Shown here piece by piece: positions 1-61,819 of a stretch of DNA of 64,000 nt. Position numbers and translations under genes: made by a program. The stretch lies in contig OX031068.1 of NCBI GenBank assembly GCA_943736015.1, forward strand, positions 25,366,296 through 25,430,295. The letters are read 5' to 3'. Each line of letters starts with the position of its first letter. Position 1 is the stretch's first letter. The DNA comes from Tridacna crocea (taxonomy: Eukaryota; Mollusca; Bivalvia; Cardiida; Cardiidae). Below the pieces are notes generated by a model, which was not told the origin of the DNA, made no database searches, and worked only from the letters and a program-made list of their open reading frames with translations.

Positions 1-77
1 TCAGTCACCTTTATTTTGTCGTCTGCAAATGCTTTCAATTTGGACAAGTCTAAAATTTTCGTGTGGTAAAGAGTTAA
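1..77 (+). mobile_element. Family A MITE, right end only
   Basis: The right third of a family A element, cut by the window edge. It holds the GTCGTCTGCAAATGCTTTC subterminal block and ends GGTAAAGAGTTAA. Its terminal TTAA (74-77) is also the left TTAA of the next copy. Confidence 0.85.
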
Positions 78-302
78 CCCATGTTACCAAACTATCCCTG
101 GTTTTTAAGACCCTGAGATAGAAGCCTTTTGAAAACATTGTGGCAAAAGGAGAAAATGCTGGCAACCAGCATTTTTTCCATTTCCCACAATGTTTTCTAC
201 CCTGCTGGGAAAAAAAATCAATTTTTAAGTTCTGTTTATTTTGTTGTCTGTAAGTGCTTTCAATATGGACATGGCTTAAATTTTGTGTTTGGTAAAGATT
301 AA
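74..302 (+). mobile_element. Family A MITE, full length
   Basis: Full copy abutting the previous one with a single TTAA between them. The palindrome is intact apart from one-base differences in the arms, for example GGCAAAAGG on the left against CATTTCCC on the right. Confidence 0.85.
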
Positions 303-337
303 CCCTTATGCTGCTAATGGTTACTCAAAGATCACTT

Positions 338-872
338 TGCCAAGCCCCAATAGATCAGTCGGTACAGACTTGAGAACAGAGGTATCCAGTTCTCTCACTG
401 GCTGAGCCAGTTTTCTTTCCAAGGATTAACTCTTTACCAAACGACAATATTTTAGGCTTGTCCAAATCAAAAGCATTTGCAGACGACAAAATGAAAGCGA
501 CTGAAAATTTAACATTTGTTTTGTGAAGGGTAGAAAACATTGTGGGAAAAGGAGAAAATGCTGGTTACCAGCATTTTCTCCTATTCCCACAATGTTTTCT
601 AAAGGCTTCTTTCTCAGGGGCGTCAAAAGTAGGGATTGTGTGGTAATGGGTTAATGGTAGTCATTGTGGCAGGATTCATTCCTCTCTCACCACTGATCGT
701 AGTTTTGATGATGATTTTGTGGGAAAGCAGCCAGTGGCTTAGATAGAATATTGTGCAGAGTACTGGTAACAGAAACTTCAGGGAAGCATGGATAGGTGCA
801 CTGGCTGCCACGATATAGCTGAAATAATGTTGAAAACGGCATTAAACACCATACAATCAGTCAAGGATCATT
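338..872 (+). mobile_element. tRNA-derived SINE (family S1) split by a MITE
   Basis: The head at 338-370 carries a degenerate pol III A box (TAGATCAGTCGGTA). The body resumes at 655 with GGTAGTCATTGTGGCAGG, GTGGGAAAGCAGCCAGTGG and GAAATAATGTTGAAAACGG, all shared with the copy at 48380-48715. A family A MITE at 426-654 interrupts it at the TTAA in GGATTAATGGTAG; the uninterrupted copy at 21286 reads GGATTGATGGTAG here, so the target is visible. Confidence 0.75.
426..654 (-). mobile_element. Family A MITE inside a SINE
   Basis: Complete reverse copy with TTAA on both sides and an intact palindrome. It sits in the body of an S1 SINE, so it is younger than that SINE insertion. Confidence 0.92.
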
Positions 873-891
873 CACAGACAGGGTAGAACAA

Positions 892-954
892 GATCAGATT
901 GTACAGATCATGCTCTCTGACCTTGGATCTACACTATCTGACAAAAAAATAATG
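892..954. repeat. Short GATCAGA palindrome element, degenerate
   Basis: Reads CAAGATCAGATTGTACAG, then GACCTTGGATCTACACT: a worn copy of the dispersed 50-60 bp inverted repeat best seen at 62053-62110. Confidence 0.5.
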
Positions 955-1018
955 TATCACCCAAAAAATAATATTGCAAGAACATTTTGGATTTATTCTT
1001 TGGGCTTGAAATGCTCAT

Positions 1019-1258
1019 TTAACTTTTTTGAAGGTTATCCCTTTTGCAGATAAGTCCTGGCTCTGATGTTGAAGGCCTTTGAAAACACTGTGGAAAAAGG
1101 AGAAAATGCTCATAATGAGCATTTTCTCTTTTTTTCCCACAGTGTTTTCCTTCCCTTACAAATACAAATACCACCTTATAACCCACTCTAAATTTGTTGT
1201 CAGCAAAATCTTTCTATTTCAGCTGACCCAAATTACCTCAAAAAGAACTATGTGTTAA
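1019..1258 (+). mobile_element. Family A MITE, diverged
   Basis: TTAA on both sides and a recognisable palindrome whose centre is rebuilt to TGCTCATAATGAGCA, closer to family B. The subterminal blocks are strongly diverged, so this is one of the older copies. Confidence 0.55.
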
Positions 1259-1364
1259 TTACTGTGTGAGGTCACATTTTATTAAGTATAATTTGAATAA
1301 AAAAATTGGTATGATCTATGTAATCAAATCTAATGCATCTGGCAAAATGGCAGGCTAACATGGG

Positions 1365-1592
1365 TTAACCCTTTACTCCATAGATACTCGTTTTTACGCA
1401 TTGCTTATAGGAGCCTTTGGAAAACATTGTGGCAAAAGGTGAAATTGCTCGTGACGAGCAATTTCACCTTTTGCCACAATGTTTTCTAAACTATCAAAAG
1501 GTGTCATATACACATGAGAAACAGCTTCATCCTTGCTGTTATTTAGGGTCAATTTAAGATACCATAGAAATGCATATGGGGTAAAGGGTTAA
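1365..1592 (-). mobile_element. Family B MITE, full length
   Basis: Family B shares the TTAACCCTTTACYCC ends and the GAAAACATTGTGGCAAAAGG stem with family A, but the stem continues GTGAAATTGCTCG and closes on TCGTGACGA. The subterminal DNA differs: one side carries ATAGATACTC and GCATTGCT, the other GTGTCATATACACA, CTTGCTGTTATTTAGGGTCA and CCATAGAAATGC. All B copies here are full length and close to each other in sequence, so B looks younger than most of A. + for this family means the CCCCATAAGGCATT end is on the left. Confidence 0.92.
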
Positions 1593-1736
1593 AACTTTAT
1601 CCTTCTTGCAAATTTTCTGCTGACAGTAACTGTTTAGTGTGTGGGTTGTGATGGGTCATAACTCTTTGACAGCTCTAGATGTGAGAAATTTTCAGTATTT
1701 TATCGCATTTTACATCCCAACAGACGCAAGTACTAA

Positions 1737-1952
1737 AGACACTGAAGAACTGTCCAAAATGAAAGTACAATTACTTGCAGACGACAAAATAAATGATTTG
1801 AAAATTGAAATGTTTCAGGAATAGTAGAAAACCTTGTGGGAAAAGGAGAAAATGCTGGTTTCCAGCATTTTCTCCTTTTCCCACAATGTTTTCTATTTAG
1901 GCCTACTTTCCCAGGGTTGTTAAAAGTCGGGATTGTTTGGTAACAAAGTTGA
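1737..1952 (-). mobile_element. Family A MITE, left end eroded
   Basis: The palindrome is intact (1825-1893). The left end is eroded beyond TGTCCAAAATGAAAG and the right end reads GGTAACAAAGTTGA. Confidence 0.75.
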
Positions 1953-2411
1953 AAAAACCATCCCTGTCAAAATTTGGATAATCAGCACAGTAATTCATGA
2001 ATAGATATAAACAGATCGTGATAAATAGATAAAACTTAATCCCTATGAGCAATTTCTCCTTTTGCCAAAATGTTTTTAGAGAGAGTCTGGTTAAAGATGA
2101 AAAATTTTGTCTGTATTGGGTATTGTGTTTATGGATGTGTATGGTTGCTGAGACTAAATTGTTTTGCTGACAGAGGAATATGAAAAAATGTAAATATTCA
2201 GTTGCGTAATGGTGGAAGATTCTCGAGTTATAAAATTCTGCTGAGTTATGGTGTTTTCTGTGTTTACAAATCGGTGATTTCTTTTTTTGTGTGGATCTCG
2301 GGGTTTTCTTTGTGATAGATTGATGTATTTTGGAATATTATGCAGTGAGACTTGGTATATGATCAGTACTTTTGTCAAACTTGAAAATCCTGTATCATAC
2401 AGTGCAGAGTT
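1953..2411. other. Unassigned spacer
   Basis: AT-rich DNA with stops in all frames. A short piece near 2043 (GAGCAATTTCTCCTTTTGCC) resembles one palindrome arm. Nothing else recognised. Confidence 0.5.
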
Positions 2412-2475
2412 TTAACAACCCATAAGAAAAGCCTTAGAAAACATTGTGGGAAAATAAGAAATTGGTGGAAATAGC
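2412..2475 (+). mobile_element. Family A MITE fragment
   Basis: TTAACAACCCATAAG followed by GCCTTAGAAAACATTGTGGG: the left end and left arm only. A degenerate S1 SINE core follows within 30 bp, and GGTAGCCAGCATTTTAT near 2637 looks like the other arm. The SINE may therefore have inserted into this MITE. Confidence 0.5.
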
Positions 2476-2494
2476 ATCCAAACTCTGTTTGAAA

Positions 2495-2600
2495 ATATTA
2501 TGATGGTTATATTGATAGAATTCTTTCCTCTTTGATTGATGAGTGTTTTAACTGTTGTTTGGGAAAGCAGCAAATCATGGCTTTGAAATAACTGGATATC
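2495..2600 (+). mobile_element. S1 SINE core, degenerate
   Basis: GATGGTTATATTGATAGAATTC and GGGAAAGCAGCAAATCATGG match the SINE body seen at 655-735 and 48480-48600. Confidence 0.45.
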
Positions 2601-2668
2601 TGCAATGCCTTCTACTCGTGTAAAAGGCAAAATTTTGGTAGCCAGCATTTTATACTAAACCCAACTTT

Positions 2669-2897
2669 TTAACCCATTAGCACACAATCCCTACTTTTGA
2701 TGCCCCTGAGAAAGAAGCCTTCAGAAAACATTGTGGGAAAAGGAGAAAATGCTGGTAACCAGCATTTTCTCCTTTTCCCACAATGTTTTCTACCCTTCAC
2801 AAAACATATTTCAAATTTCCAGTCACTTTTATTTTGTTGTCTGCAAATGCTTTGGATTTGGCCCAGTCTAAAATATTGTTGTTTGGTAATGGGTTAA
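2669..2897 (+). mobile_element. Family A MITE, full length (reference copy)
   Basis: Structure, left to right: TTAA; end CCCATTAGCACACAATCCC; subterminal block TTTTGATGCCCCTGAGAAAG; palindrome from GAAAACATTGTGGG (about 2726) to CCCACAATGTTTTC (about 2792), arms about 33 nt around one central base in GCTGGTAACCAGC; block with GTCACTTTTATTTTGTTGTC and TGCAAATGCTTTGGATTTGG; end GTTTGGTAATGGG; TTAA. The two ends form a terminal inverted repeat of about 17 bp. TTAA duplication and CCCTTTRCC-type ends are typical of piggyBac-derived MITEs. There is no coding capacity. Confidence 0.95.
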
Positions 2898-3452: not shown

Positions 3453-3574
3453 AGTTTTTTTTTGGAAAGGGTAAACCAAAAATTTGCACAAATAATGGCA
3501 CTATAAATATTATTATATCATTGTAGCCATTTATTCAAGCCTGGATGAAGATGATAATTACTAGATAACAACAT

Positions 3575-5475: not shown

Positions 5476-5707
5476 CACCCTTTACCAAATGGTACAATTT
5501 TGGAGTAGTCCAAATTGAAAGTCTGTGCAGACAATAAAATTAATTAATAAAGAGATTCAGATAATTTGATTTATGTGACTCAAAAATTGAAGTTTGTTTG
5601 GGGAAGGACAGTAAAAATTGTAGGAAAAGGAGAAAATGCTGGTAACCAGCATTTTCTCTTATCCTCACAATGTTTTCAGCTGGCTTCTCCTTCAGGTAAA
5701 GCCTTAA
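5476..5707 (-). mobile_element. Family A MITE with inverted core
   Basis: The outer blocks are reverse (CCAAATTGAAAGTCTG on the left), but the palindrome centre is GGTAACC, the forward form. This is the clearest exception to the centre/orientation rule. The right end is cut short and merges with the next copy at TTAA 5704-5707. Confidence 0.75.
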
Positions 5708-5932
5708 CCGTTTACTCCACAGATACTCATTTCTACGCATTGCTTGTAAGAGCCTTTGGAAAACATTGTGGCAAAAGGTGAAATTGCTCGTGATGAGCAA
5801 TTTCACCTTTTGTCACAATGTTTTCCATGCTATCTAAAGGTATCATATACACATAAGAAATGGCTTCATCCTTGCTGTTATTTAGGGTCAGTTAGAGATA
5901 CCATAGAAATCCCTTATGGGGTAAAGGGTTAA
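5704..5932 (-). mobile_element. Family B MITE, full length
   Basis: Abuts the family A copy to its left through one shared TTAA. The palindrome is intact apart from one right-arm change (TTTTGTCAC). Confidence 0.92.
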
Positions 5933-6117: not shown

Positions 6118-6346
6118 TTAACCCATTACCACACAATCCCTACTTTTGACGCCCCTGAGAAAGAAGCCTTTTGAAAACACTGTGGGAAAAGGAGAAAATG
6201 CTGGTAACCAGCATTTTCTCCTTTTCCCACAGTGTTTTCTACCCTTCCCAGAACAAATTTCAATTTTTCAGTCACCTTTATTTTGTCGTCTGCAAATGCT
6301 TTGAATTTGGACCGGTCTAAAATTTTGTCGTGTGGTAAAGAGTTAA
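6118..6346 (+). mobile_element. Family A MITE, full length
   Basis: TTAA both sides and perfect palindrome arms of the ACACTGTGGG subfamily, centre GGTAACC. Confidence 0.94.
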
Positions 6347-7397: not shown

Positions 7398-7614
7398 TTA
7401 ACCATTGACCTATTATAAGAACCCTGGGATAAACGCTTTTTGAACATTGTGGGAAAAGAAGAGAATGCTGGTAACCAGCATTCTCTTCTTTTCCCACAAT
7501 GTTGTTCTACTCTTTGAAAAATTATTAATTTGAACCACTTTGAAATTTTAATTGCAAATATTTTTATCATACTGGTATAACAATGTAGAACTTTGTTATG
7601 TGGTCAAGGGTGAA
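7398..7614 (+). mobile_element. Family A MITE, diverged
   Basis: TTAA on the left. The palindrome has compensated changes on both arms (AAAAGAAGAGAATGC with GCATTCTCTTCTTTT), so it is still perfect although the element is otherwise diverged. The right end reads GGTCAAGGGTGAA. Confidence 0.85.
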
Positions 7615-12053: not shown

Positions 12054-12279
12054 TTAACCCTTTACCCCATAAGGCATTTCTATGGTATCTCTAATTGACC
12101 CTAAATAACAGTAAGCATGAAGCCATTTCTTATGTGTATATGACACCTTTTGATAGTGTGGAAAACATTGTGGCAAAAGGTGAAATTGCTCATCATGAGC
12201 AATTTCACCTTTTGCCACAATGTTTTCCAAAGGCTTCTAGCAATGTGAAGAAATGAGTAACTATGGAGTAAAGCGTTAA
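12054..12279 (+). mobile_element. Family B MITE, full length
   Basis: TTAA both sides, perfect palindrome with centre GCTCATCATGAGC. Confidence 0.93.
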
Positions 12280-13978: not shown

Positions 13979-14001
13979 TTGAAATAAATTTTTATCTTTC
14001 A

Positions 14002-14028
14002 CCCCCCCCCCCCCCCCCCCCCCCCAAA
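14002..14028. repeat. Poly-C tract
   Basis: An uninterrupted run of more than 20 C followed by A, directly before a Helentron-like element. Run length should be treated as approximate. Confidence 0.8.
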
Positions 14029-14040
14029 AAAAATCTATTT

Positions 14041-15273
14041 TTAGCTCCACTGGCCAAAGGCCAGCGGGCTTATGTCATGGCCCGGTGTCTGTCGTGCGTC
14101 TGTCCGTCTGTGCGTGCATGCGTGCGTTAACTTTTATTTCAAACATCTTCTTCTCTGAAACTACCCATCCAATTTTGACGAAACTTCACAGAAATGATCC
14201 TGCCATGGTCCTTTTCAGAATTCCTTGAAAGAATTGTATTCCTTCAAAAACTCTGGTTGCCATGGCAACAAAACTGAAAAATATTGAAAATTTTTTGGCA
14301 TGTAGCTTTATCTAGTGGACCTCTACCAAGTTCCTTCAAATAATAGCCCTGGGGTCAAAATTGGCCCCACCCCGGGGGTCACAAGTTTTATATGGGCTTA
14401 TATAGGGAAAACTTTAAAATCCCTTTGGTACCTAGCCATAGGGCCTAGGGCTACCAAATTTGGCATGTAGCTTTATCTAGTAGACTTCTACCCAGAGTGC
14501 CCAAATGATAGCCCAGAGGTCAAATTTGGCCCGGCCCCGGGAGTCACAAGTTTTATATGGGCTTATATAGTGAAAACTTTAAAAATCTTTTCGTAGCAAG
14601 CCATAAGGCCTAGGGCTACTCAATTTTGCATCTAGCTTTATCAAGTAGTTGTCTACAAAAGGTGCCCAAATTGTAGCCTTGGGGTCAAATTTGGTCCTGT
14701 CCTGGGGGTCACAAGTTTTACATGGGCTCATAATGGGAATTTTTTAAAAATCTACTTGTAACTAGCCATAAGGCCTAGGGCTATCAAATTTTGCATGTAG
14801 CTTTATCTAGTGGGCCTCTACCAGGAAGGCCCAAATTATAGCTTTAGGGTCAAGTTTGTCCCCACACCAGGGGTCACAAGTTTTACATGGGCTTTTGTGG
14901 TGAAAACTTTCTAATTCATCTTGTTACTAACCATAATAAAGACTAAGGACCACTAAATTTAGCCCTGTCTCATGGATTTTATGTTTTACAGGGCCTTTTA
15001 TTGAGAAAACTTTGAAAATCTTCTTGTTTATAACCACACATTCTAGACCTGTATTATTTGGTATGGGGCTTTATCTTGTAGACCTCCACCAGGATTCAAG
15101 TAATTATAGCTTTGTGGTCAAAATTAAATTTGCCCAGGGATCACAACTTTTTTGTAGGTTTTTATGGAAAAATGATTCTAATCATGTCCTCAAGTTTGAA
15201 ACCAGTTGGCCAAATAATGTAATGTTTGGCTTGTAGTGTTTTTACGAATTAGCCAGTGGAGCGATACAGGGCA
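14041..15273 (+). mobile_element. Helentron-like element H1, copy 1, 3' end clipped
   Basis: Starts TAGCTCCACTGGCCAAAGG, has a TCTGTCCGTCTGTGCG tract, then tandem units of 165 bp (GGCCTAGGGCTACYMAATTT at 14442, 14607, 14772). It ends at AGCCAGTGGAGCGATACAGGG, the inverse of the 5' end. The last part of the 3' hairpin and TCTTGTT are missing. No protein coding. Confidence 0.75.
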
Positions 15274-16582: not shown

Positions 16583-16805
16583 TTAACTCGTTACCAGACG
16601 ACAATATTTTAGGCTTGTCCAAATGGAAAGCATTTCCAGACGACAAAATAAATATGACTGAAAATTTGAAGTTTGTTTTATGAAGGGTAGAAAACATTGT
16701 GGGAAAAGGAGAAAATGCTGGTTACCAGCATTTTCTCCTTTTCCCACAATGTTTTCTAAAGGCTTCTTTCTCAGGGGCGTCAAAAGTAGGGATTGTGTGG
16801 GTTAA
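16583..16805 (-). mobile_element. Family A MITE, full length
   Basis: TTAA both sides, perfect palindrome. A few bases are missing just inside the right end (GTGTGGGTTAA). Confidence 0.92.
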
Positions 16806-17180: not shown

Positions 17181-17412
17181 CTGACCCTTTACCCCGTAAG
17201 GCATTGCTATGGTATCTGTAATTGACCCTATAAAGTAACAGCAAGGATGAAGCCGTTTCTTATGTGTATATGACCCCTTTTGATAGTGTAGAAAACATTG
17301 TGGCAAAAGATAAAATTGCTAGTCACGAGCAATTTCACCTTTTGCCACAATGTTTTCCAAAGGCTCCTGCATCCAATGTGTAGAAATGAGTATCTATGGA
17401 GTAAAGGGTTAA
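17181..17412 (+). mobile_element. Family B MITE
   Basis: The left target is decayed (TGACCC), the right one is TTAA. Palindrome centre GCTAGTCACGAGC. First of three abutting elements. Confidence 0.88.
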
Positions 17413-23485: not shown

Positions 23486-23681
23486 CTAACTTCTTATCAA
23501 ACAACATAATTTTAGACTAGTCCATATGGGAAGCATTTGCAGACAACAAAATTAATGTGACTCAAAAATTGAAATTTGTTTCGGGAAAGGAAAAAAACCA
23601 TGTGGGAAAAGGAGAAAATGCTGGTTACCAGGCTTCTTTTTTAGGGTTGTGAAAACCAGGGGTTATTTGGGAAATAGTTAA
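23486..23681 (-). mobile_element. Family A MITE, right arm deleted
   Basis: The sequence goes from GCTGGTTACCA straight to GGCTTCTTTTTTAGGG, losing the entire right arm. Right TTAA shared with the next copy. Confidence 0.83.
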
Positions 23682-23904
23682 CCTTTTACCAAACAATCCC
23701 TGGTTTTTATGACTCTATGGTAGAAGCCTTTTGAAAACATTGTGGGAAAAGGGAAAAAATGCTGGTAACCAGCATTTTGTCCTTTTCCCACAGTGTTTTC
23801 TACATTGCTGGAAATAAACTTCAATTTTTAAGTAATGTTTATTTTGTTGTCTGCAAATGCTTTCAATTTGGACAAGTCTAAAATTTTGTTTGGTAAAGAG
23901 TTAA
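23678..23904 (+). mobile_element. Family A MITE, full length
   Basis: TTAA both sides, near-perfect palindrome. Confidence 0.92.
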
Positions 23905-24158: not shown

Positions 24159-24283
24159 TTAACCCTACCCCACACAATTCGGAATTTGGAAGAAAAGGTC
24201 TTGAAAACACATTCATATTTTTGTCTTCAAAAGCTTTGAATTTTGACAAGTCAAAGGTTTTTTTTCATTTGTTGAAGGATTAA
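24159..24283 (+). mobile_element. Family A MITE, palindrome lost
   Basis: TTAACCCTACCCCACACAATTC joined to TTTTGTCTTCAAAAGCTTTG and the right end: 125 bp without the core. First of three abutting elements. Confidence 0.75.
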
Positions 24284-24507
24284 CTCTTTCCCAAACGACA
24301 AATTTTGGACTCTTCCAAATCAAAAGAGTTTGCTGACGACAATTTTAAATTTGGAGAAAATGGCAGAAAGTTCTCAAAAAGGGTAGAAAACACTGTAGGA
24401 AAAGGAGAAATTGCTCGTTACGAGCAATTTCTCCATTTCCCACTGTGTTTTCAAAAAACTTTTACTGCAGACACATAAAAACCAGGGCTTGTTCGGTGAA
24501 GGGTTAA
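24280..24507 (-). mobile_element. Family C MITE, full length
   Basis: Stem GAAAACACTGTAGGAAAAGG continuing GAGAAATTGCTCG, centre GCTCGTTACGAGC; ends TTAACTCTTTCCCAAACGAC and GGTGAAGGGTTAA. Subterminal DNA includes GGACTCTTCCAAATC and CAGGGCTTGTTCGG. Family C is intermediate: A-like termini and stem base, B-like centre. + for this family means the AAGCCCTGGTTTTTAC end is on the left. Confidence 0.88.
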
Positions 24508-24730
24508 CTCTTTACCAAACAATGAAATTTTAGACTGTCCATATTGACAGCACTAATGGAGATGACAATTTTAGATGGGCTCAAAACAAGGAAATTATAT
24601 CAGAAAGAGTAGAAAACATTGCTGGAAAAGGAGAAGATGCTGGTTACCAGCATTTTCTCCTTTTCCCATAATGTTTTCAACTGGTTTTCTTCTTCAGGGT
24701 GGTTAAAACTCGGTATTGTGTGGCAGAGTC
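24504..24730 (-). mobile_element. Family A MITE
   Basis: Shares its left TTAA with the family C copy. Palindrome nearly intact; right end GTGGCAGAGTCAAG is decayed. Confidence 0.83.
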
Positions 24731-25617: not shown

Positions 25618-25734
25618 TTAACCCTTTGCTACACAATCCCGACTTTTAAAACTCCTATGAAAGAAGCCTTTTGAAAACATTGTGGGAAAAGGAGAAAATG
25701 TTGGTAAAAATTTGGTGGAATGGTAAAGAGTTAA
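25618..25734 (+). mobile_element. Family A MITE, internal deletion
   Basis: TTAA both sides but only 117 bp: left half up to GAAAATGTTGGTAAAAATTTGG, then directly the right end. Confidence 0.85.
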
Positions 25735-28309: not shown

Positions 28310-28538
28310 TTAACTCTTTACCACACGACAAAATTTTAGACTGGTCCAAATTGAAAGCATTTGCAGACGACAAAATAAAGGTGACTGAAAAATTGAAATT
28401 TGATCTGGGAAGGGTAGAAAACACTGTGGGAAAAGGAGAAAATGCTGGTTACCAGCATTTTCTCCTTTTCCTACAGTGTTTTCTAAAGGCTTCTTTCTCA
28501 GGGGCGTCAAAAGTAGGGATTGTGTGGTAATGGGTTAA
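28310..28538 (-). mobile_element. Family A MITE, nested
   Basis: TTAA both sides, perfect ACACTGTGGG-type palindrome: the young subfamily again, here inside an old copy. Confidence 0.94.
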
Positions 28539-28586
28539 TGACCCTCAGGGAAAGATCTTTCGATAACATTGTTGGAATAGGAGAAT

Positions 28587-28815
28587 TTAACCCTTTACCC
28601 CATAAGGCATTTCTATGCTATCTCTAATTGACCCTAAATAACAGCAAGGATGAAGCTGTTTCTTATGTGTATATGACACCTTTTGATAGCATAGAAAACA
28701 TTGTGGTAAAAGGTGAAATTGGTTGTCATGAGCAATTTCACCTTTTGCCACATTGTTTTCCAAAGGCTCCTTCAAGCAATGCGTAGAAATGAGTATCTGT
28801 GGAGTAAAGGGTTAA
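28587..28815 (+). mobile_element. Family B MITE, nested
   Basis: TTAA both sides. Inserted in the palindrome arm of the old element, just after GGAATAGGAGAAT. Confidence 0.93.
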
Positions 28816-29152
28816 ATGTTTACAACATTGTTTTCTCATTTTCCAACATTTTTTTTCCCCTTTCAAAGGTACCATAATTCCATCATTTGCTTCACATTTA
28901 ATTTGTTGTTGTCAAGTACTTCTAATTTATACAAGTACATGATTTATTAAATTTTGTCATTTAGCAAAAGGGTTAACCTGTCATGCTGCTTTCTTGAAAG
29001 TTCCAAATTGAAATCACATGGTAATAAGTCAGAGTATAGCATTATGGAAATAGAAGTTGGATTAGAACAAAATAAAAAACGTAATGAGAAAACTGGAGGA
29101 AATAGTAACTGTTGGTTATGACCAGTTTTTGTATCCCGATGGTAATTACTCT

Positions 29153-30888: not shown

Positions 30889-32337
30889 TTAGCTCCACTG
30901 GCCGAAGGCCAGCGGGCTTATGCCATGGCCCGGTGTCCGTCGTGCGTCCGTCCGTCCGTCTGTGCGTGCGTCTGTCCGTCCGTGCGTGCGTTAACTTTTA
31001 TTTCAAACATCTTCTTCTCTGAAACTACCCATCCAATTTTGATGAAACTTCACAGAAATGATCCTTCCATGGTCCTCTTCAGAATTCCTTGAAAGAATTT
31101 TATTCCTTCAAAAACTCTGGTTGCCATGGCAACAAAACTGAAAAATATTGAAAATTTTTAAAAATCTTCTTCTCTGAAACCATAAGGCCTAGGGCTACCA
31201 AATTTGGCATGTAGCTTTATCTAGTGGACCTCTACCAAATTCCTTCAAATAATAGCCCTGGGGTCAAAATTGGCCCCGCCCTGGGGGTCACAAGTTTTAT
31301 ATGGGCTTATATAGGGAAAACTTTAAAATCCTTCTGGTACCTAGCCATAGGGCCTAGGGCTACCAAATTTGGCATGTAGCTTTATCTAATAGACCTCTAC
31401 CCAGGGTGCCCAAATGATAGCCCAGAGGTCAAATTTGGCCCGGCCCTGGGGGTCACAAGTTTTATATGGGCTTGTATAGTGAAAACTATAAAAATCTGTT
31501 CGTACCAAGCTATAAGGCCTAGGGCTACTCAATTTTGCATCTAGCTTTATCAAGTGGTTGTCTACCAAAGGTGCCCAAATTGTAGCCCTGGGGTCAAATT
31601 TGGTCCTGTCCTGGGGGTCACAAGTTTTATATGGGCTTATATAGTGAAAACTATAAGAATCTGTTCATACCAAGCCATAAGGCCTAGGGCTACTCTATTT
31701 TGCATCTAGCTTTATCAAGTGGTTGTCTACCAAAGGTGCCCAAATTGTAGCCCTGGGGTCAAATTTGGTCCTGTCCTAGGGGTCACAAGTTTTACATGGG
31801 CTCATATTGGGAATTTTTTAAAAATCTACTTGTACCTAGCCATAAGGCCTAGGGCTACCAAATTTTGCATGTAGCTTTATTTAGTGGGCCTCTACCAAGA
31901 GGGCCCATATTATATCCTTAGGGTCAAGTTTGTCCCCACACCAGTGGTCACAAGTTTTACATGGGCTTGTGTGGTGATAACTTTCTAAGTCATCTTGTTA
32001 CTAACCATAATAAAGACTATGACCACTAAATTTAGCCCTGTCTCATGGGTTTTATGTTTTACAGGGAAAACTTTGAAAATCTTCTTGTTTATAACCACAC
32101 ATTCTAAACCTGTATTATTTGGTATGGTGCTTTATCTTGTAGACTTCCACCAGGATTCAAGTAATTATAGCTTTGTGGTCAAAACTGGATTTGCCCAGGG
32201 GTCACAACTTTTTTGTGGAAAAAAATTGTATGCCTTCAAGTTAGAAACCAGTTGGCCAAATAATGTAATGTTTGGCTTGTAGTGTTTTTACGAATTAGCC
32301 AGTGGAGCGATACAGGGCCATCATGGCCCTCTTGTTT
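30889..32337 (+). mobile_element. Helentron-like element H1, copy 2, complete ends
   Basis: Starts TAGCTCCACTGGCCGAAGG. Ends AGCCAGTGGAGCGATACA, then the hairpin GGGCCATCATGGCCC, then TCTTGTTT. The 5' GCTCCACTGGC and the 3' GCCAGTGGAGC are inverse but lie asymmetrically (at the very 5' end, but about 30 bp inside the 3' end). Between them: a TCCG/TGCG tract and about seven degenerate 165-bp units containing GGCCTAGGGCTACCAAATTT and GGGGTCACAAGTTTTA. The geometry matches Helentron-derived non-autonomous elements. No ORF. Confidence 0.82.
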
Positions 32338-33891: not shown

Positions 33892-34116
33892 TTAACCCTT
33901 TCCTAAACAAGCCCTGGTTTTTACATGTCTGCAAAATAAGTCTTGAAAATACTGTGGGAAAAGGAGAAATTGCTCTAACGAGCAATTTCTCCTTTTCCCA
34001 CAGTGTTTTCTACCCTTTCTGAAAGCTTTCACTCATTTTCATCAAGTTTAGAATTGTTGTCTGCAAACTCTTTCAGTTTGGAAGAGTCTAAAATTTGTCA
34101 TTTGGGAAAGAGTTAA
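33892..34116 (+). mobile_element. Family C MITE, full length
   Basis: TTAACCCTTTCCTAAACAAG on the left, TTGGGAAAGAGTTAA on the right. Centre GCTCTAACGAGC (one base short of palindromic). Confidence 0.9.
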
Positions 34117-34341
34117 CCCATTACTATACAATACCTACTTACAACGCCCCTGAGAAAGAAGCCTTTAGAAAACATTGTGGGAAAAGGAGAAAATGCTGGT
34201 AACCAGCATTTTCTCCTTTTCCCTCAACGTTTTCTACCCTTCACAAAACAAATTTCAAATTTTCAGTCACTTTTATCTTGTCGTCTGCAAATGCTTTCGA
34301 TTTGGATAAGCCTAAAATATTGTCGTTTGGTGATGAGTTAA
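34113..34341 (+). mobile_element. Family A MITE, full length
   Basis: Abuts the family C copy through one TTAA. Palindrome near-perfect. Confidence 0.92.
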
Positions 34342-37204: not shown

Positions 37205-37486
37205 AGTGAAGAATATTTACTTCAAATGTGGATGAGTTGTTTATTATCGAAAGATAGTAAAGATATTTGTGATACATTTATGTCCCTTGTTCACTTAAAA
37301 TTTAACTTAAAATCTAGCACCCTCAGCTGAGTGTTGACATCCTCTATACTTACACAATTATACCGAACAATAGTCGTTCTATGAGAAAGAAAGAGAATTG
37401 TATTTGTAGAAATCAGGCTTATGACACACCAAGCAAAAATAGTTTGACAAAAGAATGAACAGCTGTTTGACTCTTTTCTTTATTTT

Positions 37487-38758
37487 TATGCTCCCCGAAG
37501 GGCGCGCATATAGTCGCTGCTTCGTCTGTCCGTCCGTCTGTCCGTCCGTCCTTCCGTCCGTCCGTCCGTCCGTCCGTCCGTCCGTCCGTCCGTCCGTCCG
37601 TCCGTCCGAAGCGATTTCTCCACAACCCTTGGACCAAATTGGATGAAACTTCATATATGAACTCCTTGGGGTTATGCGCCGATATACTTTTCCCGGATTT
37701 TCAATTTGACCCCATGCCATGGAAAACAGGGGCTTAATGCAAAATTGCAATTTTTACCCATGTCTCATTCAGTTTTTGTCAGAATATCATGAAACTTCAT
37801 GGTTATATTGTTTATGGAAAGTCCTAGCATATGCCCTTGCTATTTTTAATCTGGGCATTTTTTAAGTTGATGTTCTGTCATGGAAAAAGGGGGCTTCTTG
37901 CAAGATTCCAATTTTTACTAATATTTCATTCAGTTTTGGTCAAAATTTCATTAAATTTCATGGTTATATTGTTTTTTAAGAGTTTCACCATGTGCTCTTG
38001 TTTCTTTATCTATGTGTTTTTCAATTTGACGCTCTGTCATGGAAAAAGGGGGTTTCTTGTAAACTGAAAAAGGGGCCCTAATGCAAAATTGCAATTTTTA
38101 CTAATATCTTGTTCAGTTTTTGTCGACATTTCATGGTTATATCTTGTTTTACAAGTTTCAACATGTGCCCTTTGTTTTTGCAATCTGTGAATTATTAATG
38201 TGCAAATACGTCTTTCCTGCTTTCTCAAATTAAGGCTGCATCACGGAAAAAGGGGACTTCATGGAAAAAATTGTTTTTCACTAGGTTCTCCTTTATCAGT
38301 GCTCAAACCTTTGTGAAATTTCAAATCTGAACTTGTTGGAACGTTGCCCAGGTACCTCTCTTCCTTTTTCTCAATTTCAGGCTGCGTCTCGGAAAAAGGG
38401 GGCTTCATGTAAAAAATTGTTTCATGTAATATTTAATACATGACTGCTCAAAATTTTATGAAATTTTGAATTTTTAATTATTATTAAAAAATGCCACAAA
38501 CCACACACCCGTTGTATTTATTGCAATGATTCAATACTGTCTTATGGGAAAAGGAGGCTTAAAGGGGGCTTATTGGGCTTATTGTCCTCTACAAGTTTAT
38601 GTTGGCTATCTCTAAGATAGTACTTGCCTTTTCACCTCAAATTTTGGGGGGCATAAACAGGTTCTTCTAGGATAAAAGAAGTGAATTTATATAAATTTCT
38701 TATATTTTATGACAAGCACTTGTTCGGGGAGCATAACCCGTCTCTGACGGCTCTTGTT
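37487..38758 (+). mobile_element. Helentron-like element H2, copy 1
   Basis: Starts TATGCTCCCCGAAGGGCG; near the end CTTGTTCGGGGAGCATAA (inverse of the start), then hairpin CCGTCTCTGACGG and CTCTTGTT. A TCCG tract at about 37516-37608 and internal units of about 160 bp (CATGGAAAAAGGGGGCTTC at 37718, 37879, 38038). Translating the TCCG tract gives a Thr-Asp-Gly-Arg repeat frame that is not a gene. Confidence 0.82.
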
Positions 38759-40080: not shown

Positions 40081-40324
40081 GCACCACTAGGTGTTGATTA
40101 TATCAAGGACTAAAGAATGCTTGGCACTGTGAGGTAAAGAGCTTAGGGTTTAGTTCAGTCTAGATGTCGATGATTAAATAAACAAAAAAATTCCTCACTG
40201 ACATTCCAAAAAGAGCAAAAAAAAACCAGTTGCTGTGAATATTCTTTTGCTTTTATGTATAACTTTGTCCCTACAGATAAAAAACTTGACGGGTTCTTTT
40301 CTAAGGTGTCTTCAAAAGTATTTT

Positions 40325-41594
40325 TATGCTCCCCGAAGGGCGAGCATATAGTCGCCGCTTCGTCTGTCCGTCCGTCTGTCCGTCCTTCCATCCGTCCGTC
40401 CTTCCATCCGTCCGTTCTTCCGTCCGTCTCTCCGTCTGTCCGTCCGAAGCCATTTCTCCACAACCCTTGGACCAAATTGGATGAAACTTCATATATGAAC
40501 TCCTTAGGGTAATGCGCTGATATACTTTTCCCGGATTTTCAATTTGACCCCGTGCCATGGAAAAAAGGGGCTTAATGCAAAATTGCAATTTTTACCAATA
40601 TCTCATTCTGTTTTTGTCAGAATATCATGAAACTTCATGGTTATATTGTTTATGGAAAGTTTTAGCATGTGCCCTTGCTATTTTTTATCTGGGCATTTTT
40701 AAGTTGACGTTCTGTCATGGAAAAAGGGGGCTTCTTGCAAAATTCCAATTTTTACTAATATTTCATTCAGTTTTGGTCAAAATTTCATTAAACTTCATGG
40801 TTATATTGTTTTTTCAAAGTTTCACCATGTGCTCTTGTTTCTTATCTATGTGTTTTTTCAATTTGACCCTCTGTCATGGAAAAAGGGGGTTTCTTGTAAA
40901 AAAAAAAAAGGGGCCCTAATGCAAAATTGCAATTTTTACTAATACTTGTTCAGTTTTTATCAACATTTCATGGTTATATCTTGTTTTACAAGTTTCAACA
41001 TGTGCCCTTTGTTTTTGCAATCTATGAATTATTAATACGCAAATACGTCTTTCCTGGTTTCTCAAATTAAGGCTGCATCACGGAAAAAGGGGACTTCATG
41101 GAAAAAATTGTTTTTCACTAGGTTCTCCTTTATCAGTGCTCAAAACTTTGTGAAATTTCAAATCTGAACTTGTTAGAACGTTGCCCAGGTACCTCTCTTC
41201 CTTTTTCTCAATTTCAGGCTGCGTCTTGGAAAAAGGGGGCTGGGGAGCTTCATGTAAAAAATTGTTTCATGTAATATTTAATACATGACTGCTCAAAATT
41301 TTATGAAATTTCGAATTTTGAATTATTATTAAAAAATGCCACAAACCACACACCCATTGTATTTATTGCAATGATCCAATATTGTCTTATGGGAAAAGGG
41401 GGCTTAAAGGGGGCTTATTGTCCTGTACAAGTTTGTGTTGGCTATCTCTAAGATAGTATTTGCCTTTTCACTTCAAATTTTTGGGGGCATGAACAGGTTC
41501 TTCTGGGATAAAAGAAGTAAATTTATATTAGTGTCTTATATTTTATGACAAGCACTTGTTCGGGGAGCATAACCCGTCTCTGACGGCTCTTGTT
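40325..41594 (+). mobile_element. Helentron-like element H2, copy 2
   Basis: Same length and order as 37487-38758, differing only by scattered substitutions, small indels and TCCG tract length. By eye over 93 percent alike. Ends CTCTTGTT. One of the two younger large insertions in the window. Confidence 0.85.
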
Positions 41595-46165: not shown

Positions 46166-46166
46166 T

Positions 46167-49603: not shown

Positions 49604-49801
49604 GGGCCTGTATTCACCACACATTCTTATGAATGTTCTCTGTCTTATTCTGCAGAATTTTCTATATTTGAAAGTAACACACCATCTGATTGGCTTAACC
49701 AAATTTTTTAGCCAATCAAAAGTTGTGTTACTTTCAAACTTTGAACATCTTGAAGAATAAGACTAAGAATAGTCTTAAAAATGGTAGATGAATACAGGCC
49801 C
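49604..49801. mobile_element. Foldback element F, copy 2
   Basis: Ends GGCCTGTATTCACCAC and GATGAATACAGGCC, centre TTAACCAAATTTTTTAGCC. Aligns with 22119-22318 throughout. Confidence 0.75.
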
Positions 49802-50048: not shown

Positions 50049-50246
50049 ATTCTTTTACCATACAATCCTGTGCTTGAATGACCTAAATGCAAGAGGCTCT
50101 TTGGAAACATTGTGAGAGAAGAAAATGCCAGTAACCAGTGTTAATTTTTTCCTGCCTTTGAAGCAATGCTATTCTGTCCTGTTAATTACTCAAATCTCAA
50201 ATTTCAAGTCACGTTTAATCTGGGTTCTGCAGAAGATTAGAGTTAA
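50045..50246 (+). mobile_element. Family A MITE, diverged
   Basis: TTCTTTTACCATACAATCC left; degraded palindrome (GCCAGTAACCAGTG); right TTAA shared with a family B copy. Confidence 0.7.
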
Positions 50247-50471
50247 GCCTTTACTCCATTGATACTCATTTCTGAACATAGCTTGTAGGAGCCTTCTGCA
50301 AACATTGTGGCAAAAGGTGAAATTTCTCATGACAAGCAATTTCACCTTTTGTCACAATGTTTTCTATGCTATCAAAATGTGTCATATACTCATAAGAAAA
50401 AGCCTCATCCTTGCTGTTATTCAGGGTCAATTAGAGATACCATAGAAATGCCTTATGGGGTAAGGGGTTAA
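50243..50471 (-). mobile_element. Family B MITE, full length
   Basis: TTAA both sides. Palindrome with slight changes (TTTCTCATGACAAGCAATTTC). Confidence 0.9.
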
Positions 50472-54003: not shown

Positions 54004-55682
54004 TAGCTCCACTGGCCAAAGGCCAGCGGGCTTATGTCATGGCCCGTTGTCCGTCGTCCGTCCGTCCGTCCGTCCGTCCGTCCGTGCGTCCGTCCGTCCG
54101 TCCGTGCGTTAACTTTTTCTTTAAACATCTTCTTCTCTGAAACTACCCATCCAATTTTGATGAAACTTCACAGAAATGATCCTGCCATGGTCCTCTTCAG
54201 AATTTCTTGAAAGAATTTAATTCCTTCAAAAACTCTGGTTGCCATGGCAACAGAACTGAAAAATTTTGAAAATCTTTGAAAATCTTCTTGTCTGAAACCG
54301 TAAGGCCTAGAGCTACCAAATTTGGCATGTAGCTTTATCTAGTGGACCTCTACCAAGTTTCTTCAAATTATAGCCCTGGGGTCAAAATTGGCCCCGCCCC
54401 GGGGGTCACAAGTTTTACATGGGCTTATTTAGGGAGAACTTTAAAACTCCTCTTCTACCTAGGCATAGGGCCTAGGTCTACCAAATTTGGGATGTTGTTT
54501 CATTTAGTGGACCTCTACCAAGAGTGTCTAAATTATAGCCCTGGGGTCAAAATTGGCCCCGCCCCGGGGGTAACAAGTTTTACATGGGCTTGTATAGGGA
54601 AAACTTCAAAATTCTTCTTCCACCTAGCCATAGGGCCTAGGGCTACCAAATTTGGCATGTAGCTTTATCTAGTGGACCTCTACCAAGGGTTTCCAACTTA
54701 TAGCTCAGGGGTCAAATTTGGCCCAGCCCTGGGGGGTAACAAATTTTACATGGGCTTATATAGGGAAAACTTTCAAAATCTTGTCGCACCTAGCTATAAG
54801 GACTAGGGCTATCAAATTTTGCACGTAGCTTTATCTAGGGGGTCTCTACCAAGGGTGCCCAAAAGTATAGCCCTGGGGTCAAATTTAGCCCCCATCACAG
54901 GAGATCACAAGTTTTGCATTGGATTATATAGGGAAACTTTAATAATCTACTTGTACATAGCCATAAGGCCTAGGGCTACCAAAATTTGCATGTAGCTTTA
55001 TCTAATGGGATTCTACCAAGAAGGCCAAAATTTTTACTTTGTGGGGTCAAGTTTGACCCTATCCCAGGGGTCACAAGTTTTACATAGGCTTTATAAACCT
55101 GTCTCATGGGTCACATATTTTGCAGGGCCTTTCATTGAGCAAACTTGTTGTACAGGGCTTTTTATATGGCAAGATTCAAAAATCTTCGTGTTTATAACCA
55201 CACATTCTAGTTTCATATTGTAGGTCTGGGGTCAAAATTGGCTCCATCCAGGGATCACAAGTTTAACATGGGCCTCACTTTAATTTATACATTAATCAAG
55301 GGAAATAACTCTTTTTTATGAAAGATAAAGTTTGGTACTATTTACCTCCCTTGATTATCAAACTGCATTGATACATGATTGGTGCTAGACATTAAGTTTT
55401 TTGATAGAAAATATTCTGTTTTCAAGTGTTATTCATTTTTTTGATGCTAATAGTTATGCTCACATGAGGTGAATAATAAATTCAGAGTAAGGTTTCTATC
55501 ATTCAGCTTATTTTTCCAAGGATTTTACCTTTCATGCTAATGAATTAACCTGCTTGTACTGCCTGACAGCCTTCATTGTTTTTGAAGGCCCTCTTTTTCA
55601 TGGTCATGAATACTTCAATTTGTGTGGTAAAGGGTTAAAAAGCCAGTGGAGCGATACAGGGCCATCATGGCCCTCTTGTTTT
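54004..55682 (+). mobile_element. Helentron-like element H1b, long copy
   Basis: Starts TAGCTCCACTGGCCAAAGG, TCCG tract at 54057-54108, about five 165-bp units, and the same 3' body as 53565-53981, including the captured MITE end (about 55585-55636). Ends GGGCCATCATGGCCC then TCTTGTTT. Separated from the previous copy by only 22 bp. The 106-codon frame at 54342 reads through two tandem units and is not a gene. Confidence 0.83.
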
Positions 55683-57046: not shown

Positions 57047-57055
57047 AAATAGAAC

Positions 57056-57470: not shown

Positions 57471-57487
57471 AATGATGAGATCTTTCT

Positions 57488-57548: not shown

Positions 57549-58606
57549 TAGCTCACCTGAGCACAACGTGCTCAAGGGGAGCTTTTAGGGTCACTGGGTG
57601 TCCGTCGTCCGTCGTGCGTCGTCTGTCGTTCGTCGTGCGTCGTCAACAATTCTTTAAACATCAACTCCTCCTAAACCACTGGGCCAATTTGGACCAAACT
57701 TGGCAGGAATGTTCCTTGGGAGGTCCTCTTTAAAAATTGTTCACAGAATTTGATTCCGTCAAAAACTCCGGTTGCCATGGCAACCAAATGGAATTTTTTA
57801 GCAAATTCTTTAAAAATCTTCTCCTCTGAAACCGCTGGTCGGATTTTGAAATAATTTCACAGATATGTTCCTTGTGTGACCCTTTTCAAAAATTGTTCGT
57901 GAAATTTTGATCCGTCAAAAATTGTGGCTCTGGTGAATGGGGGCTACTTGCTCTATATAGAAGTGAAGGAATTCTTAAAAAATCTTCTTCTCTGAAACCG
58001 CTGGTCGGATTTTGAAATAATTTCACAGATATGTTCCTTGGGTGACCCTTTTCAAAAATTGTTCGTGAAATTTTGATCCGTCAAAAAATGTGGCTCTGGT
58101 GAATGGGGGCTACTTGCACTATACAGCAATGAAGGAATTCTTAAAAAATCTTCTTCTCTGAAACCGCTGGTCAGATTTTGAAATAATTTCACAGAATTGT
58201 TCCTTGGGTGACCCTTTTCAAAAATTGTCCGCAAAATTTTGATCCGTCAAGAAACATGGCTCTGGTGAATGGGGGCTACTTGCACTATAGGGAAATGAGG
58301 AAATTCTTAAAAAAATCTTTTCTCTGAAACCGCTTGTCAGATTTTGAAATAATTTCCCAGGGATGTTCCTTGGGTGACCCTTTTCAAAAATTGTTCACAA
58401 AATTTTGATCCGTCAAGAAACATGGCTCTGGTGAATGGGGGCTACTTGCACAAAAGGGAAATGAAGAAATTCTTAAAAATTCTTCTTCTCTGAAACGGCT
58501 GGACAGATTTTGAAATGATTTCACAGAGATGATCATTGGGTGACCTTTGTCAAAAACTGTTCACAAAATTTTGATCCGTCGAGAAACAGGGCTCTGGTGA
58601 ATGGGG
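57549..58606 (+). mobile_element. Helentron-like element H3, 3' end lost
   Basis: Starts TAGCTCACCTGAGCACAACG, has a CGTCGTGCGTCG tract, then units of exactly 166 bp (GGCTCTGGTGAATGGGGGC at 57927, 58093, 58259, 58425, 58591). It stops abruptly at GGGGGCTACCCC, where a TTCATGAA-rich block begins. Confidence 0.8.
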
Positions 58607-59100
58607 GCTACCCCCTGTGTCGTGTTTATGAATTCTTCATGAACATTTCATGAAAACAACATGAAGTGTTCATGAGTTGAATTCATGAATACTTCATGAA
58701 TAAGAAGTGAACAGAAAATGAGACAAATTCATGAAAAAATCGTGAAATGATGGTTCATGAATTGTTCATGAAGGATAAAATGCATAAAACATTCATAATT
58801 CAAGAACACATACAAGTTCTTAAAAAAATCATGAATGAAGCATTGGTTTATCTTCATGAAAAATTCATGAATTTTTTATGAACATACATTTTTCATGAAG
58901 TTTTCATGCATTTTTTTATTCATAAATTCAATGTCTCATTTTCTGTTCACTTCTTCTTCATGAATTCTTCATGAATTAATATTCTTGAAATTTCATGAAT
59001 ATTGTCTAGTAGAGTATTCATGAATACTTCATGAAAACAAGTAGTTTTTAAATTGGTCAAATTCATGAATACTTCATGAATATGAGGCAAGCTGAAGATG
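58607..59100. repeat. TTCATGAA-rich foldback block
   Basis: More than 20 occurrences of TCATGAA in about 450 bp. Embedded is a long inverted repeat: AAGAAGTGAACAGAAAATG and neighbours (about 58703-58727) with CATTTTCTGTTCACTTCTT (about 58935-58955), both flanked by TTCATGAATTC-like words. No coding. Confidence 0.75.
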
Positions 59101-59327
59101 TGCAAAATGCATTAAAATCTCATGAAATGTGGATTGATTGAATTGTGTTTTACGCTGTTTTCAACAGTATTTCAGGCATGAAATAGAGATTCAAGAACAA
59201 TTCATACAGTAGAATATTTCCTTTTTTAATTTATAGTGATAGTGACCATTATGGCCTAACTGACCATGGTCTAACTGAAACTGCTCATTGATCTAACACA
59301 AAAATACAACTAGAGCGGTCACTGAAT

Positions 59328-59615
59328 GTGATTTGAATTTTTTCTTCAGTTTCCTCTTCATGGGACTTATAAGCAGCTCACTTTGTTCTTCTCCACCTTC
59401 TTCATAGGAGTGTTTAAAACTTGGGATTGTTTGGTTACCATCAAATCGGACTGTAAGATTTATCTTCATCTGTATTCTCATTTTTCCTGAATTTTTTCTT
59501 TATTAACTGGATTTTCTCCGTCATCTGTTTTTTCTAAAATCTGTGAATTTTTTCTTCAGTTTCCTCTTCATGGGGCTTATTAGCAGCTCATTTGTTCTTC
59601 TCTACCTTTTTGTCA
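59328..59615 (+). repeat. Direct repeat of about 70 bp, two copies
   Basis: GAATTTTTTCTTCAGTTTCC and CTCTTCATGGGRCTTATWAGC occur at 59333 and 59546. Between them lies a MITE-like piece (AAAACTTGGGATTGTTTGG). Confidence 0.65.
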
Positions 59616-59875
59616 TGTTTGAGCAGATTCAGTAAGCCTTTAGTATTCCTGGTTCTATGTCACAAATTTGCGACCAAGAGTGGACTCTTCACAACTGCAC
59701 TGTAAAAATCAAATTAAAACAGTGATTCGTTTGTTTGAATTTGAAGTCAAGTCTGATATGTACAACTCTTACAATATGTGAGTCAACTTCATGCAACGTT
59801 TGTTGAGGTTGCACCTAGTAAAAATAAGCCCCCCCCCTTTTGGCTGCCATGGTTTAAAAAAAAATCAGACAATTT
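59616..59875. other. Unassigned spacer
   Basis: Nothing recognised apart from a short C run near 59830. Confidence 0.4.
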
Positions 59876-60082
59876 CTAACCCTTAACCAAACAATCCCTG
59901 AGATAGAAGCCTCTGGAAAACATTGTGGGAAAAGGAGAAAATACTGGTTACCATCATTTTCTCCTTTTCCCAATGTTTTCTACCCTGCTGGAAACAAGTT
60001 TCAGTGTTAGAGTTCCATTTAATTTGTGTGCAAGTGCTTCAATTTGGACATCTAATATTTCCTTGTTTGGTAACTAGTTTAA
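59876..60082 (+). mobile_element. Family A MITE
   Basis: CTAACCCTTAACCAAACAATCCC left; the TTTTTATGACTC block is missing; palindrome mildly worn; right TTAA shared with a family B copy. Confidence 0.85.
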
Positions 60083-60316
60083 CCCTTTACTCCATAGATA
60101 CTCATTTTTACGCGTTGCTTGTAGGAGTCTTTAGAAAACATTACGGCAGAAGGTGAAATTGCTCGCGAGTCATGACGAGCAATTCCACCTTTTGTCGCAA
60201 TGTTTTCTATGCTATCAAAAGGTGTCATATACACATAAGAAATGGTGTCATCCTTGCTGTTATTTAGGGTCAATTAGAGATACCATAGAAATACCTTATG
60301 GGGTAAAGCCGGTTAA
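60079..60316 (-). mobile_element. Family B MITE, expanded centre
   Basis: TTAA both sides. The centre reads GCTCGCGAGTCATGACGAGC, longer than in other B copies, as if a few bases were re-copied at the hairpin tip. Confidence 0.9.
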
Positions 60317-61344
60317 AAGGGTTCACAACAGTATTTAGTGAACTACAAAATCATTTCAAAATCTGGCGATTGGTTACAGAGAATGATTTTTAATATTTTA
60401 CAGGTTCCCTTGTTCTACCCATTGTCCAATCAGCCACTTCAAATTGCCTTTTCAGTTTTTTTATTGATTGTAAGCAATAGATTTACATAAGTATCTTAAT
60501 ATAACGGACCTTTTTGCTGCAAATTTTCAATATGGATTGCTTTACCCCTGGATGGGAACCATTAGTGCTATACCCTCTAATATGAAATCTTACTCACAGA
60601 TTTTTAGCCTAGGGGCAAGTGAACATTTGATTTAAAAAATTAGTGGGAATACCGATCTTATGTACACAGACTTCTTAGAATGAAGTGGAAAGAAAAACTT
60701 GCAGCCCTGGCATGCATTCATTTTTATAACTGTTAAATAAACAACAAAAGTTAGAGACTCAATCATGTTCCAGACATTTGCAGAAATCTAAATTTAGTCA
60801 TTTTTTTTTGTCTATTTACTTCTTCTCTGATATTTTGTTTATTAAGTGCTTATGCTGTAAAACAAGAAGGTCCAACCTCCATTCTTTCCGCATCCTCATC
60901 TAATCCATTGGTTGTTACATATTTTCATTCCAAATGCGACCACAGTTTTTCGTAATTTTTATACTGATAATGCTTTAAACATGAATTTGTGTACACCATG
61001 TTATTTACTCTTGAAATCCATCATAAAAAATGAAAAGATAGTTTTAAGTGCCCCTGATGATCAGTCGATGTTTGAAAAATTTTGTCAACTGTCTATCAAA
61101 TGTTTCAGGAAAAAAAAAAACTATTAAAATATAGATAAATGATGATTCATGCTTACCATAGTCCTATCTTATCCTCTCCACATGTTCAGATGCCTCTAAC
61201 TCATTCTCCATCAAGACAACATTGACGAAATCTTGTAAATATGCACCTTTCTCTGTTACATAATCTTAATCTGAAATAAATGCATACAACTATATCTTGG
61301 CTGTGACAACGTAGCCTTTGCTTGTATATTGTATCAAGCTGGTG
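60317..61344. other. Longest unassigned stretch
   Basis: About 1 kb without an identified repeat. A 71-codon plus frame (60912-61127; ...MNLCTPCYLLLKSIIKNEK... then ...PDDQSMFEKFCQLSIKCF...) follows a pyrimidine-rich ACCACAG acceptor-like site and ends at a stop, so it could be a terminal exon. Evidence is thin and I leave it uncalled. Confidence 0.4.
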
Positions 61345-61480
61345 CATCGGTCGACACAATTGCAGACAAAAAATTAAAACTGTCTCAAAATTGGTTTTTA
61401 CCTTTGGAAGGGTACAAGCATTTTCTTCTTTTTCCGCAATGTATTCATAAGCCTATAAATAATGTCTAGGTTGTTAAATC
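61345..61480 (-). mobile_element. Family A MITE, decayed
   Basis: AATTGCAGACAAAAAATTAAAAC, GGAAGGGTACAAGC and ATTTTCTTCTTTTTCCGCAATG. Confidence 0.5.
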
Positions 61481-61584
61481 TGGAAACTGATTAGTGTAGA
61501 AATAAATGAAATGTAATTTTCAGGCAGAAAAAAATGGCAAAAATGTGGCTTCTTTTATCTTGTTTTGGTAAAAATATGGACATA

Positions 61585-61632
61585 GTTGATTTAAGATCAG
61601 ACTGCACTTACTTTTAGTCTGATCTTTGTTTA
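61585..61632. repeat. Short GATCAGACTGCAC palindrome element
   Basis: TTAAGATCAGACTGCACTTAC pairs with TAGTCTGATCTTTGTTTAC. Confidence 0.68.
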
Positions 61633-61644
61633 CTTTTACAACAA

Positions 61645-61819
61645 AAATTACTTTACCAAAGGACAAAAATTTTAGACTGGTCCAATATGAAAGCACTACC
61701 AGACGACAAAATAAACGTAACTCAAAAATTGACATTTGTTACCAGCAGGTTAGAAAACATTGTGAGAAAAGGAGAAGATGCTGGGTCGTCAAAGTCGGGA
61801 CTGTGTGGTAAAGGTTTAA
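61645..61819 (-). mobile_element. Family A MITE, right arm deleted
   Basis: Left part normal; GAGAAGATGCTGG joins GTCGTCAAAGTCGGG directly. Right TTAA present. Confidence 0.83.

Follow-up and report, generated by a model that had tools for sequence, protein, structure and literature searches.

A palindrome with matched changes inside a TTAA-bounded element lineage of Tridacna crocea

How does a long palindrome inside a mobile element stay matched when its letters vary between subfamilies? This question is raised by a stretch of 64,000 nucleotides from Tridacna crocea (contig OX031068.1, positions 25,366,296 to 25,430,295; here called the window), in which a profile search at E<1e-3 detected 104 non-overlapping loci, copies or fragments, of one lineage of TTAA-bounded miniature inverted-repeat transposable elements (MITEs). 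An earlier note on this DNA had dealt with the density of these elements; the new point here is the pattern of matched changes in their palindrome. We read the lineage as non-autonomous and piggyBac-type, with a 67-bp palindrome that selection kept matched while the elements were mobile, and we give this reading a probability of about 0.48. The pattern points to, but does not prove, a contribution of the matched shape to the mobility of the element. A piggyBac-type transposase, supplied in trans, would cut the element out and paste it at TTAA, while the palindrome would have its effect in cis, its most likely form being a DNA hairpin or cruciform that aids assembly of the transposition complex; once a copy is dead, its arms would decay independently. 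The broader proposal, that a hairpin or cruciform inside a eukaryotic cut-and-paste element serves as a cis-acting transposition signal and is maintained by compensatory evolution, its shape being read together with its sequence by a transposase or host factor, is one that we consider doubtful.

The palindrome and its matched changes

Five subfamily consensi (A1, A2, E, C and B) were found to have a common layout between terminal TTAAs, consisting of a left flank of 55 bp, a core of 67 bp and a right flank of 107 bp in A1, A2, E and B (229 bp in all), and of 55 + 67 + 106 bp in C (228 bp). The core is the palindrome, with two 33-nt arms and one base between them; perfect cores folded as a single strand leave a 3-nt loop, and DNA folds of six cores gave -29.6 to -38.0 kcal/mol (z -10.7 to -14.9). 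The terminal inverted repeats (TIRs) are about 18 bp long with 1-3 mismatches. The palindrome was also considered as an independent mobile unit, which was rejected since 88 of the 89 core loci lie inside element loci. A tree made from the flanks only, whose alignment took in 67 of these 89 loci and left out 22, contained clades for A1 (12 rows, support 90), A2 (6, 89), E (5, 85), C (3, 97) and B (7, 99), with many rows weakly placed (47 of 64 inner branches below 80). One copy, e29417, was excluded from the A1 consensus although the tree groups it with A1. What the earlier note had listed as families A, B and C are thus subfamilies of a single 229-bp lineage, B being the outlier. The left flank of B is 58% identical to that of A1 without gaps (other offsets at most 37%) and the right flank 42% (other offsets at most 35%). 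Without its TIR, the B right flank had a mean identity of 37% to the other four consensi, compared to 27% in shuffles (p 0.007), so that common descent with the other subfamilies is likely here, if not sure. The idea that length itself is strictly kept was dropped: about 5.8 indels are expected between A1 and B, yet homology in the B right flank is weak.

Arm pairs were then counted in 62 of the 89 core loci, leaving out 27 loci with fewer than 26 comparable pairs. At columns 8, 14, 21, 26, 31 and 32 there were 48 matched and 60 unmatched changes, compared to a shuffled mean of 10.8 matched changes (largest 20); these six columns, which distinguish the subfamilies, were selected once the data had been seen, and shared descent is not taken into account by the shuffle. 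In the remaining 27 columns there were 6 matched and 210 unmatched changes (216 in total), with a shuffled matched mean of 5.1. When a position-blind rule was applied to 11 clades of the flank tree, 7 majority changes were matched and 6 unmatched, and the odds of matching in clades (7/6) differed about 40-fold from those of private changes (6/210; p 4e-7), in a clade count that enters descent-shared changes twice (T8C in A2 and C; A26T in B and C). A separate counter, applied to 15 hand-picked cores (12 distinct), found 8 pairs changed on both sides, a number reached in 5 of 500 shuffles, and a covariation score of 0.207 (0 of 500 shuffles), with slid versions at no more than 0.042. Moreover, the consensus arms mismatched at 2 of 165 core pairs but at 12 of 90 TIR pairs (p 1e-4). 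Since pairing persists where letters vary and symmetry is higher in the consensus cores than in the TIRs, we favor an explanation by structure.

The private changes bear on an explanation without selection, in which template switching within the palindrome during replication or repair makes the arms alike. PMC8794818, in the part available, proposes such a process for the creation and maintenance of matched stems, and the copy with its core at 7443-7503, which has two matched changes of its own, is consistent with it. However, correction of the arms during decay was not seen, since the 6 private matched changes in the 62 copies are about what chance gives, and homogenization alone leaves the low level of change in the core unexplained. 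This decay test does not speak against a correction coupled to transposition itself; as a whole, we regard template switching as improbable. As decay leaves the arms unmatched, matching was set while the lineages were active, and thus arises in mobile lineages and not during decay. For the active phase the options that remain are selection on pairing, selection on two symmetric protein sites or a transposition-tied correction.

The second of these options would make the palindrome a set of protein-binding half sites in ordinary duplex DNA, with symmetric changes that track transposase specificity and no hairpin. Transposase dimers of piggyBac and piggyBat do bind short palindromes near the element ends via cysteine-rich domains, according to the part of PMC11707139 covered. 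The best argument for such sites comes from B, in which both ends changed in step: its consensus reads CCATA in the inner part of both TIRs, unlike that of A1, as though B had relied on a transposase with another specificity. In contrast, the 33-nt arms exceed the 14-bp and 19-bp palindromes of that source, and the palindrome is matched at freely varying positions while the TIR arms, to which a transposase has to bind, show the consensus mismatches given above. We judge duplex protein sites to be unlikely, though well worth weighing.

The kind of change observed bears on selection of the hairpin as RNA, for instance for small RNAs or altered transcripts. The main changes are the base-pair flips G14C, A21T, A26T and G31C and the transition T8C. 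The stable fold, computed as DNA, and the compensated pairs, which usually mark an RNA stem, would fit an RNA hairpin. However, four of these five changes are pair flips and not G-U steps, and the window had no Rfam match at gathering scores; a tRNA scan of the window was empty as well. For a microRNA precursor the 3-nt loop would be short, and a non-autonomous DNA element would presumably need an effect in cis. An RNA role is thus very improbable in our estimation.

In a further comparison, the core was less diverged than the flanks in 10/10 pairs of consensi (p<0.01 in 8/10), with differences at 0-12 of 67 core sites (0-18%) and at 10-85 of 161-162 flank sites (6-53%); for A1 and B these were 9/67 and 85/162. 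Columns invariant across the five consensi numbered 54/67 in the core, 25/55 in the left flank and 35/107 in the right flank, and the outermost end letters were likewise conserved. Such a pattern might come from an ordinary old MITE family, whose palindrome would be a leftover of low mutation and whose matched differences would go back to a few founder elements. Within families, core divergence is indeed half that of the flanks, and the distinct matched positions are few. A low mutation rate, however, does not make changes match, and the odds of matching differ about 40-fold between clade and private changes; this explanation is the least probable of those considered here.

Returning to selection for a matched structure, several observations weigh against it. 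Within families, core changes are also fewer (78/2117, compared to 394/5089 in the flanks), a deficit that holds at singletons and outside CG/CA/TG sites, and a low mutation rate could be the cause of core conservation. A second option for this deficit, which we favor but regard as not proven, is that private branches include mobile time, because of copies such as 1827 (flanks 31% diverged, 2/33 core pairs mismatched) and 7443 (flanks 45% diverged, 0/30 mismatched). The blind clade rule is nearly even, its 6 unmatched changes being G12A in A2, G31 in B and four in old, long-branched clades; G31 is matched in 4 of 7 B copies, below the threshold of the rule, and A2 fixed the unmatched G12A in its left arm. 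The matched positions number only five or six, some of them shared by descent, four of the five main changes are of one kind, base-pair flips, and pair 32 is a CpG in B that may reflect CpG decay. The separate counter showed no excess in further pair types (15, compared to 14.7 in shuffles). Finally, the weak homology of the B right flank counts against this reading, as do the B ends, whose change in step shows that matched change occurs outside the palindrome as well.

Abundance, age and element ends

The search profiles were the five subfamily consensi and one general profile, and the same search of the reversed, uncomplemented window gave 0 matches. The 104 loci, 76 of which cover more than 150 model bases, occupy 29.4% of the window (30.3% with all matches; 31.4% of positions 1-61819) and are split into 53 on the plus and 51 on the minus strand. 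In addition, a 27-base core pattern with up to 3 mismatches matched 97 times, with a mean of 0.00 in 100 shuffles. The earlier estimate of 85-90 copies was thus a slight undercount, while its claims of a quarter to a third of the sequence and of both orientations agree with these figures. Copies in all stages of decay, as had also been described, were observed: among 67 aligned copies, divergence from the nearest of the five consensi ranged from 0.4% to 43%. This range is consistent with the repeated waves of amplification that had been proposed, but flank divergence in many copies lies far above what their arm mismatches lead one to expect, so some of it probably predates insertion. The window is AT-rich (GC 33-39% per 4-kb step) and looks like animal DNA. 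Its first half is richer in copies (65 of the 104 loci, compared to 39; p 0.011); TTAA outside elements has no such excess (5.9-7.2 per kb in the first half, 6.6-10.2 in the second).

Both ends are present in 47 of the 104 loci. Exact TTAA was found at 66 of these 94 ends (extrapolated) and on both sides of 28 of the 47 copies, against a background of 475 TTAA in 64000 bases; the TTAA target site duplication of piggyBac-type MITEs is therefore found here. After the TTAA, the ten consensus ends read CCC (5), CTC (4) or CAC (1): the left ends of A1 and A2 are CCCATT, the right ends of A1, A2, E and C start with CTC, and the left end of E starts with CAC. CCCATT is also an end of the coral piggyBac element AmiPB4 in the part of PMC2872659 covered, which quotes CC[C/T]T as the piggyBac-type end motif. 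The assignment to piggyBac made in the earlier note thus fits the TTAA and the C-starting ends, but the strict motif occurs at only 3/10 consensus ends (left in C, both in B). Kolobok was considered as another class and rejected, since 0/10 consensus ends start with a purine and the Kolobok end rule RR..YY (PMC9587614, as far as covered) is hence violated. Piggybac-type is the best label for these sequences, though not a proven one. A transposase was absent from the 20 scanned of the 168 open reading frames in the window (those of at least 55 amino acids and less than 35% element), none of which had a match at the curated cut-off. Exact pattern scans of viral contigs and prokaryote genomes revealed no relatives, in collections where animal DNA is not expected.

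Insertions, individual copies and other repeats

The earlier note had also proposed a preference for insertion into MITE DNA, which was not borne out: we observed 13 abutting pairs, where a rough simulation with random TTAA use gave 21 (14-29), a result that calls for no attraction to MITE DNA. As the consensi of A1, A2 and B lack TTAA in their interior, their terminal TTAAs are natural targets, and an intact shared TTAA was seen in 8 of the 13 pairs. Multimers derived from circles, as in KolobokP, were considered too, but one-by-one insertion is simpler, given that the pairs are 7 direct and 6 inverted with subfamilies mixed. Examples are the C copy at 33892..34116 (plus strand, core 33945-34010), whose TTAA at 34113-34116 is common with the abutting A1 copy at 34113..34341 (plus); the C copy at 24281..24506 (minus), abutted on both sides by 24204-24281 and 24504-24728; and the E copy at 23679..23903 (plus), which has a TTAA in common with the element at 23487-23680. 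A nest at 28535..28972, found by model continuity, consists of the B copy 28588-28814 (minus) flanked by fragments of an old copy at 28535-28585 and 28831-28972 (plus; model positions 29-79 and 97-226). A 117-bp derivative at 25618..25734 (plus) has TTAA at both ends and contains the left flank, the left arm and then only the right end, with the right arm and the greater part of the right flank missing.

The best A2 copy, at 28310..28538 (minus; core 28417-28483), is complete at 229 bp (model 1-229) with TTAA at both ends and is 0.4% from the A2 consensus; a second complete A2 copy at 6118..6346 (plus) has a perfect palindrome at 6173-6239, with pair 8 changed on both arms. A1 is represented by the complete copy at 426..654 (minus; core 533-599; model 1-229, 3.1% from consensus) and by a perfect core at 16690..16756 (minus) inside the element 16584-16800, in which 33/33 pairs match (DNA fold -37.2 kcal/mol, z -14.45). 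The seven B copies lie at 1365-1592, 5705-5931, 12055-12278, 17183-17411, 28588-28814, 50244-50470 and 60080-60308. The first of these is complete (plus; model 2-228 at 1366-1591), and its core at 1420-1486 has the four matched changes G14C, A21T, A26T and G31C with an arm mismatch of 0; the third (minus; core 12161-12227) has five matched changes, also with an arm mismatch of 0. The copy at 7402..7613 (plus) carries the 7443-7503 core mentioned above, and its own matched changes are G20A and A24G.

Other repeats were observed as well. Tandem arrays of 165-166-bp units lie at 14000-14936, 30935-31968, 54049-55020 and 57600-58611; the sequences ahead of them are related flanks (75-92% identical over 187-299 bases), three of them with GTCC-type microsatellites. 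By eye, the first three look like one unit family, and the array at 57803 is built of another unit of nearly equal length; arrays and flanks together look like one mobile element with exchangeable arrays. CGTC microsatellites at 37400-37700 and 40230-40901, the latter followed by a 160-bp tandem array, have flanks that are 93% identical to each other. A separate palindrome at 49604-49801 has 95-nt arms, 78% complementary, with 8 nt between them.

Comparison with known systems

The closest known system is CMITE of Acropora corals, as described in the part of PMC2872659 covered, which shares TTAA duplications, mostly CCC-type ends, uniform size, abutting copies, a piggyBac-like link and an internal region that varies less from family to family than the TIRs do; in the five consensi here, the internal region is likewise more conserved than the rest. 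In contrast, CMITE is about 100 bp and the present element 229 bp, and the internal 60-mer of CMITE folds no better than shuffles (z -0.65), unlike the core here. The CMITE internal sequence resembles the five consensi no more than chance would give, its best local scores being 8.5-12, with shuffled means of about 9 and maxima of 14-16. The covered parts of that paper contain no matched-change analysis. Kolobok elements and T2-MITEs (PMC9587614 and PMC6004289, both in part) also have TTAA duplication and long-lived MITE subfamilies, but the RR..YY ends of Kolobok differ from the ten C-starting ends here. In mPing and Stowaway MITEs, which belong to other superfamilies, internal MITE DNA affects mobility as well (PMC9921582, as far as covered); "palindrom", "hairpin" and "secondary structure" occur 0 times in the main text of that paper. 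The portions of the literature searched on this topic showed no such palindrome case, and six element strings had no match there.

The piggyBac-like Ifp2, MER75, MER85 and Looper share the TTAA target and inner inverted repeats with the present lineage, in the part of the preprint PMC12324416 covered. In those elements the repeats are short, with 5-15 nt in the search made there and 19 bp in the STIRs of Ifp2, and lie close to the termini, whereas the 33-nt arms here are internal. The authors of this 2025 preprint suggest that PGBD5 may recognize hairpin or cruciform DNA; their gel shift with B-form probes gave no band, and they state that folded probes are yet to be tried. They raise recognition of such structures by piggyBac-type transposases as an open question. 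The present lineage offers natural test substrates for it, with matched change when mobile and unmatched decay in single copies, and its dead copies serve as an internal control by which selection can be told apart from arm correction.

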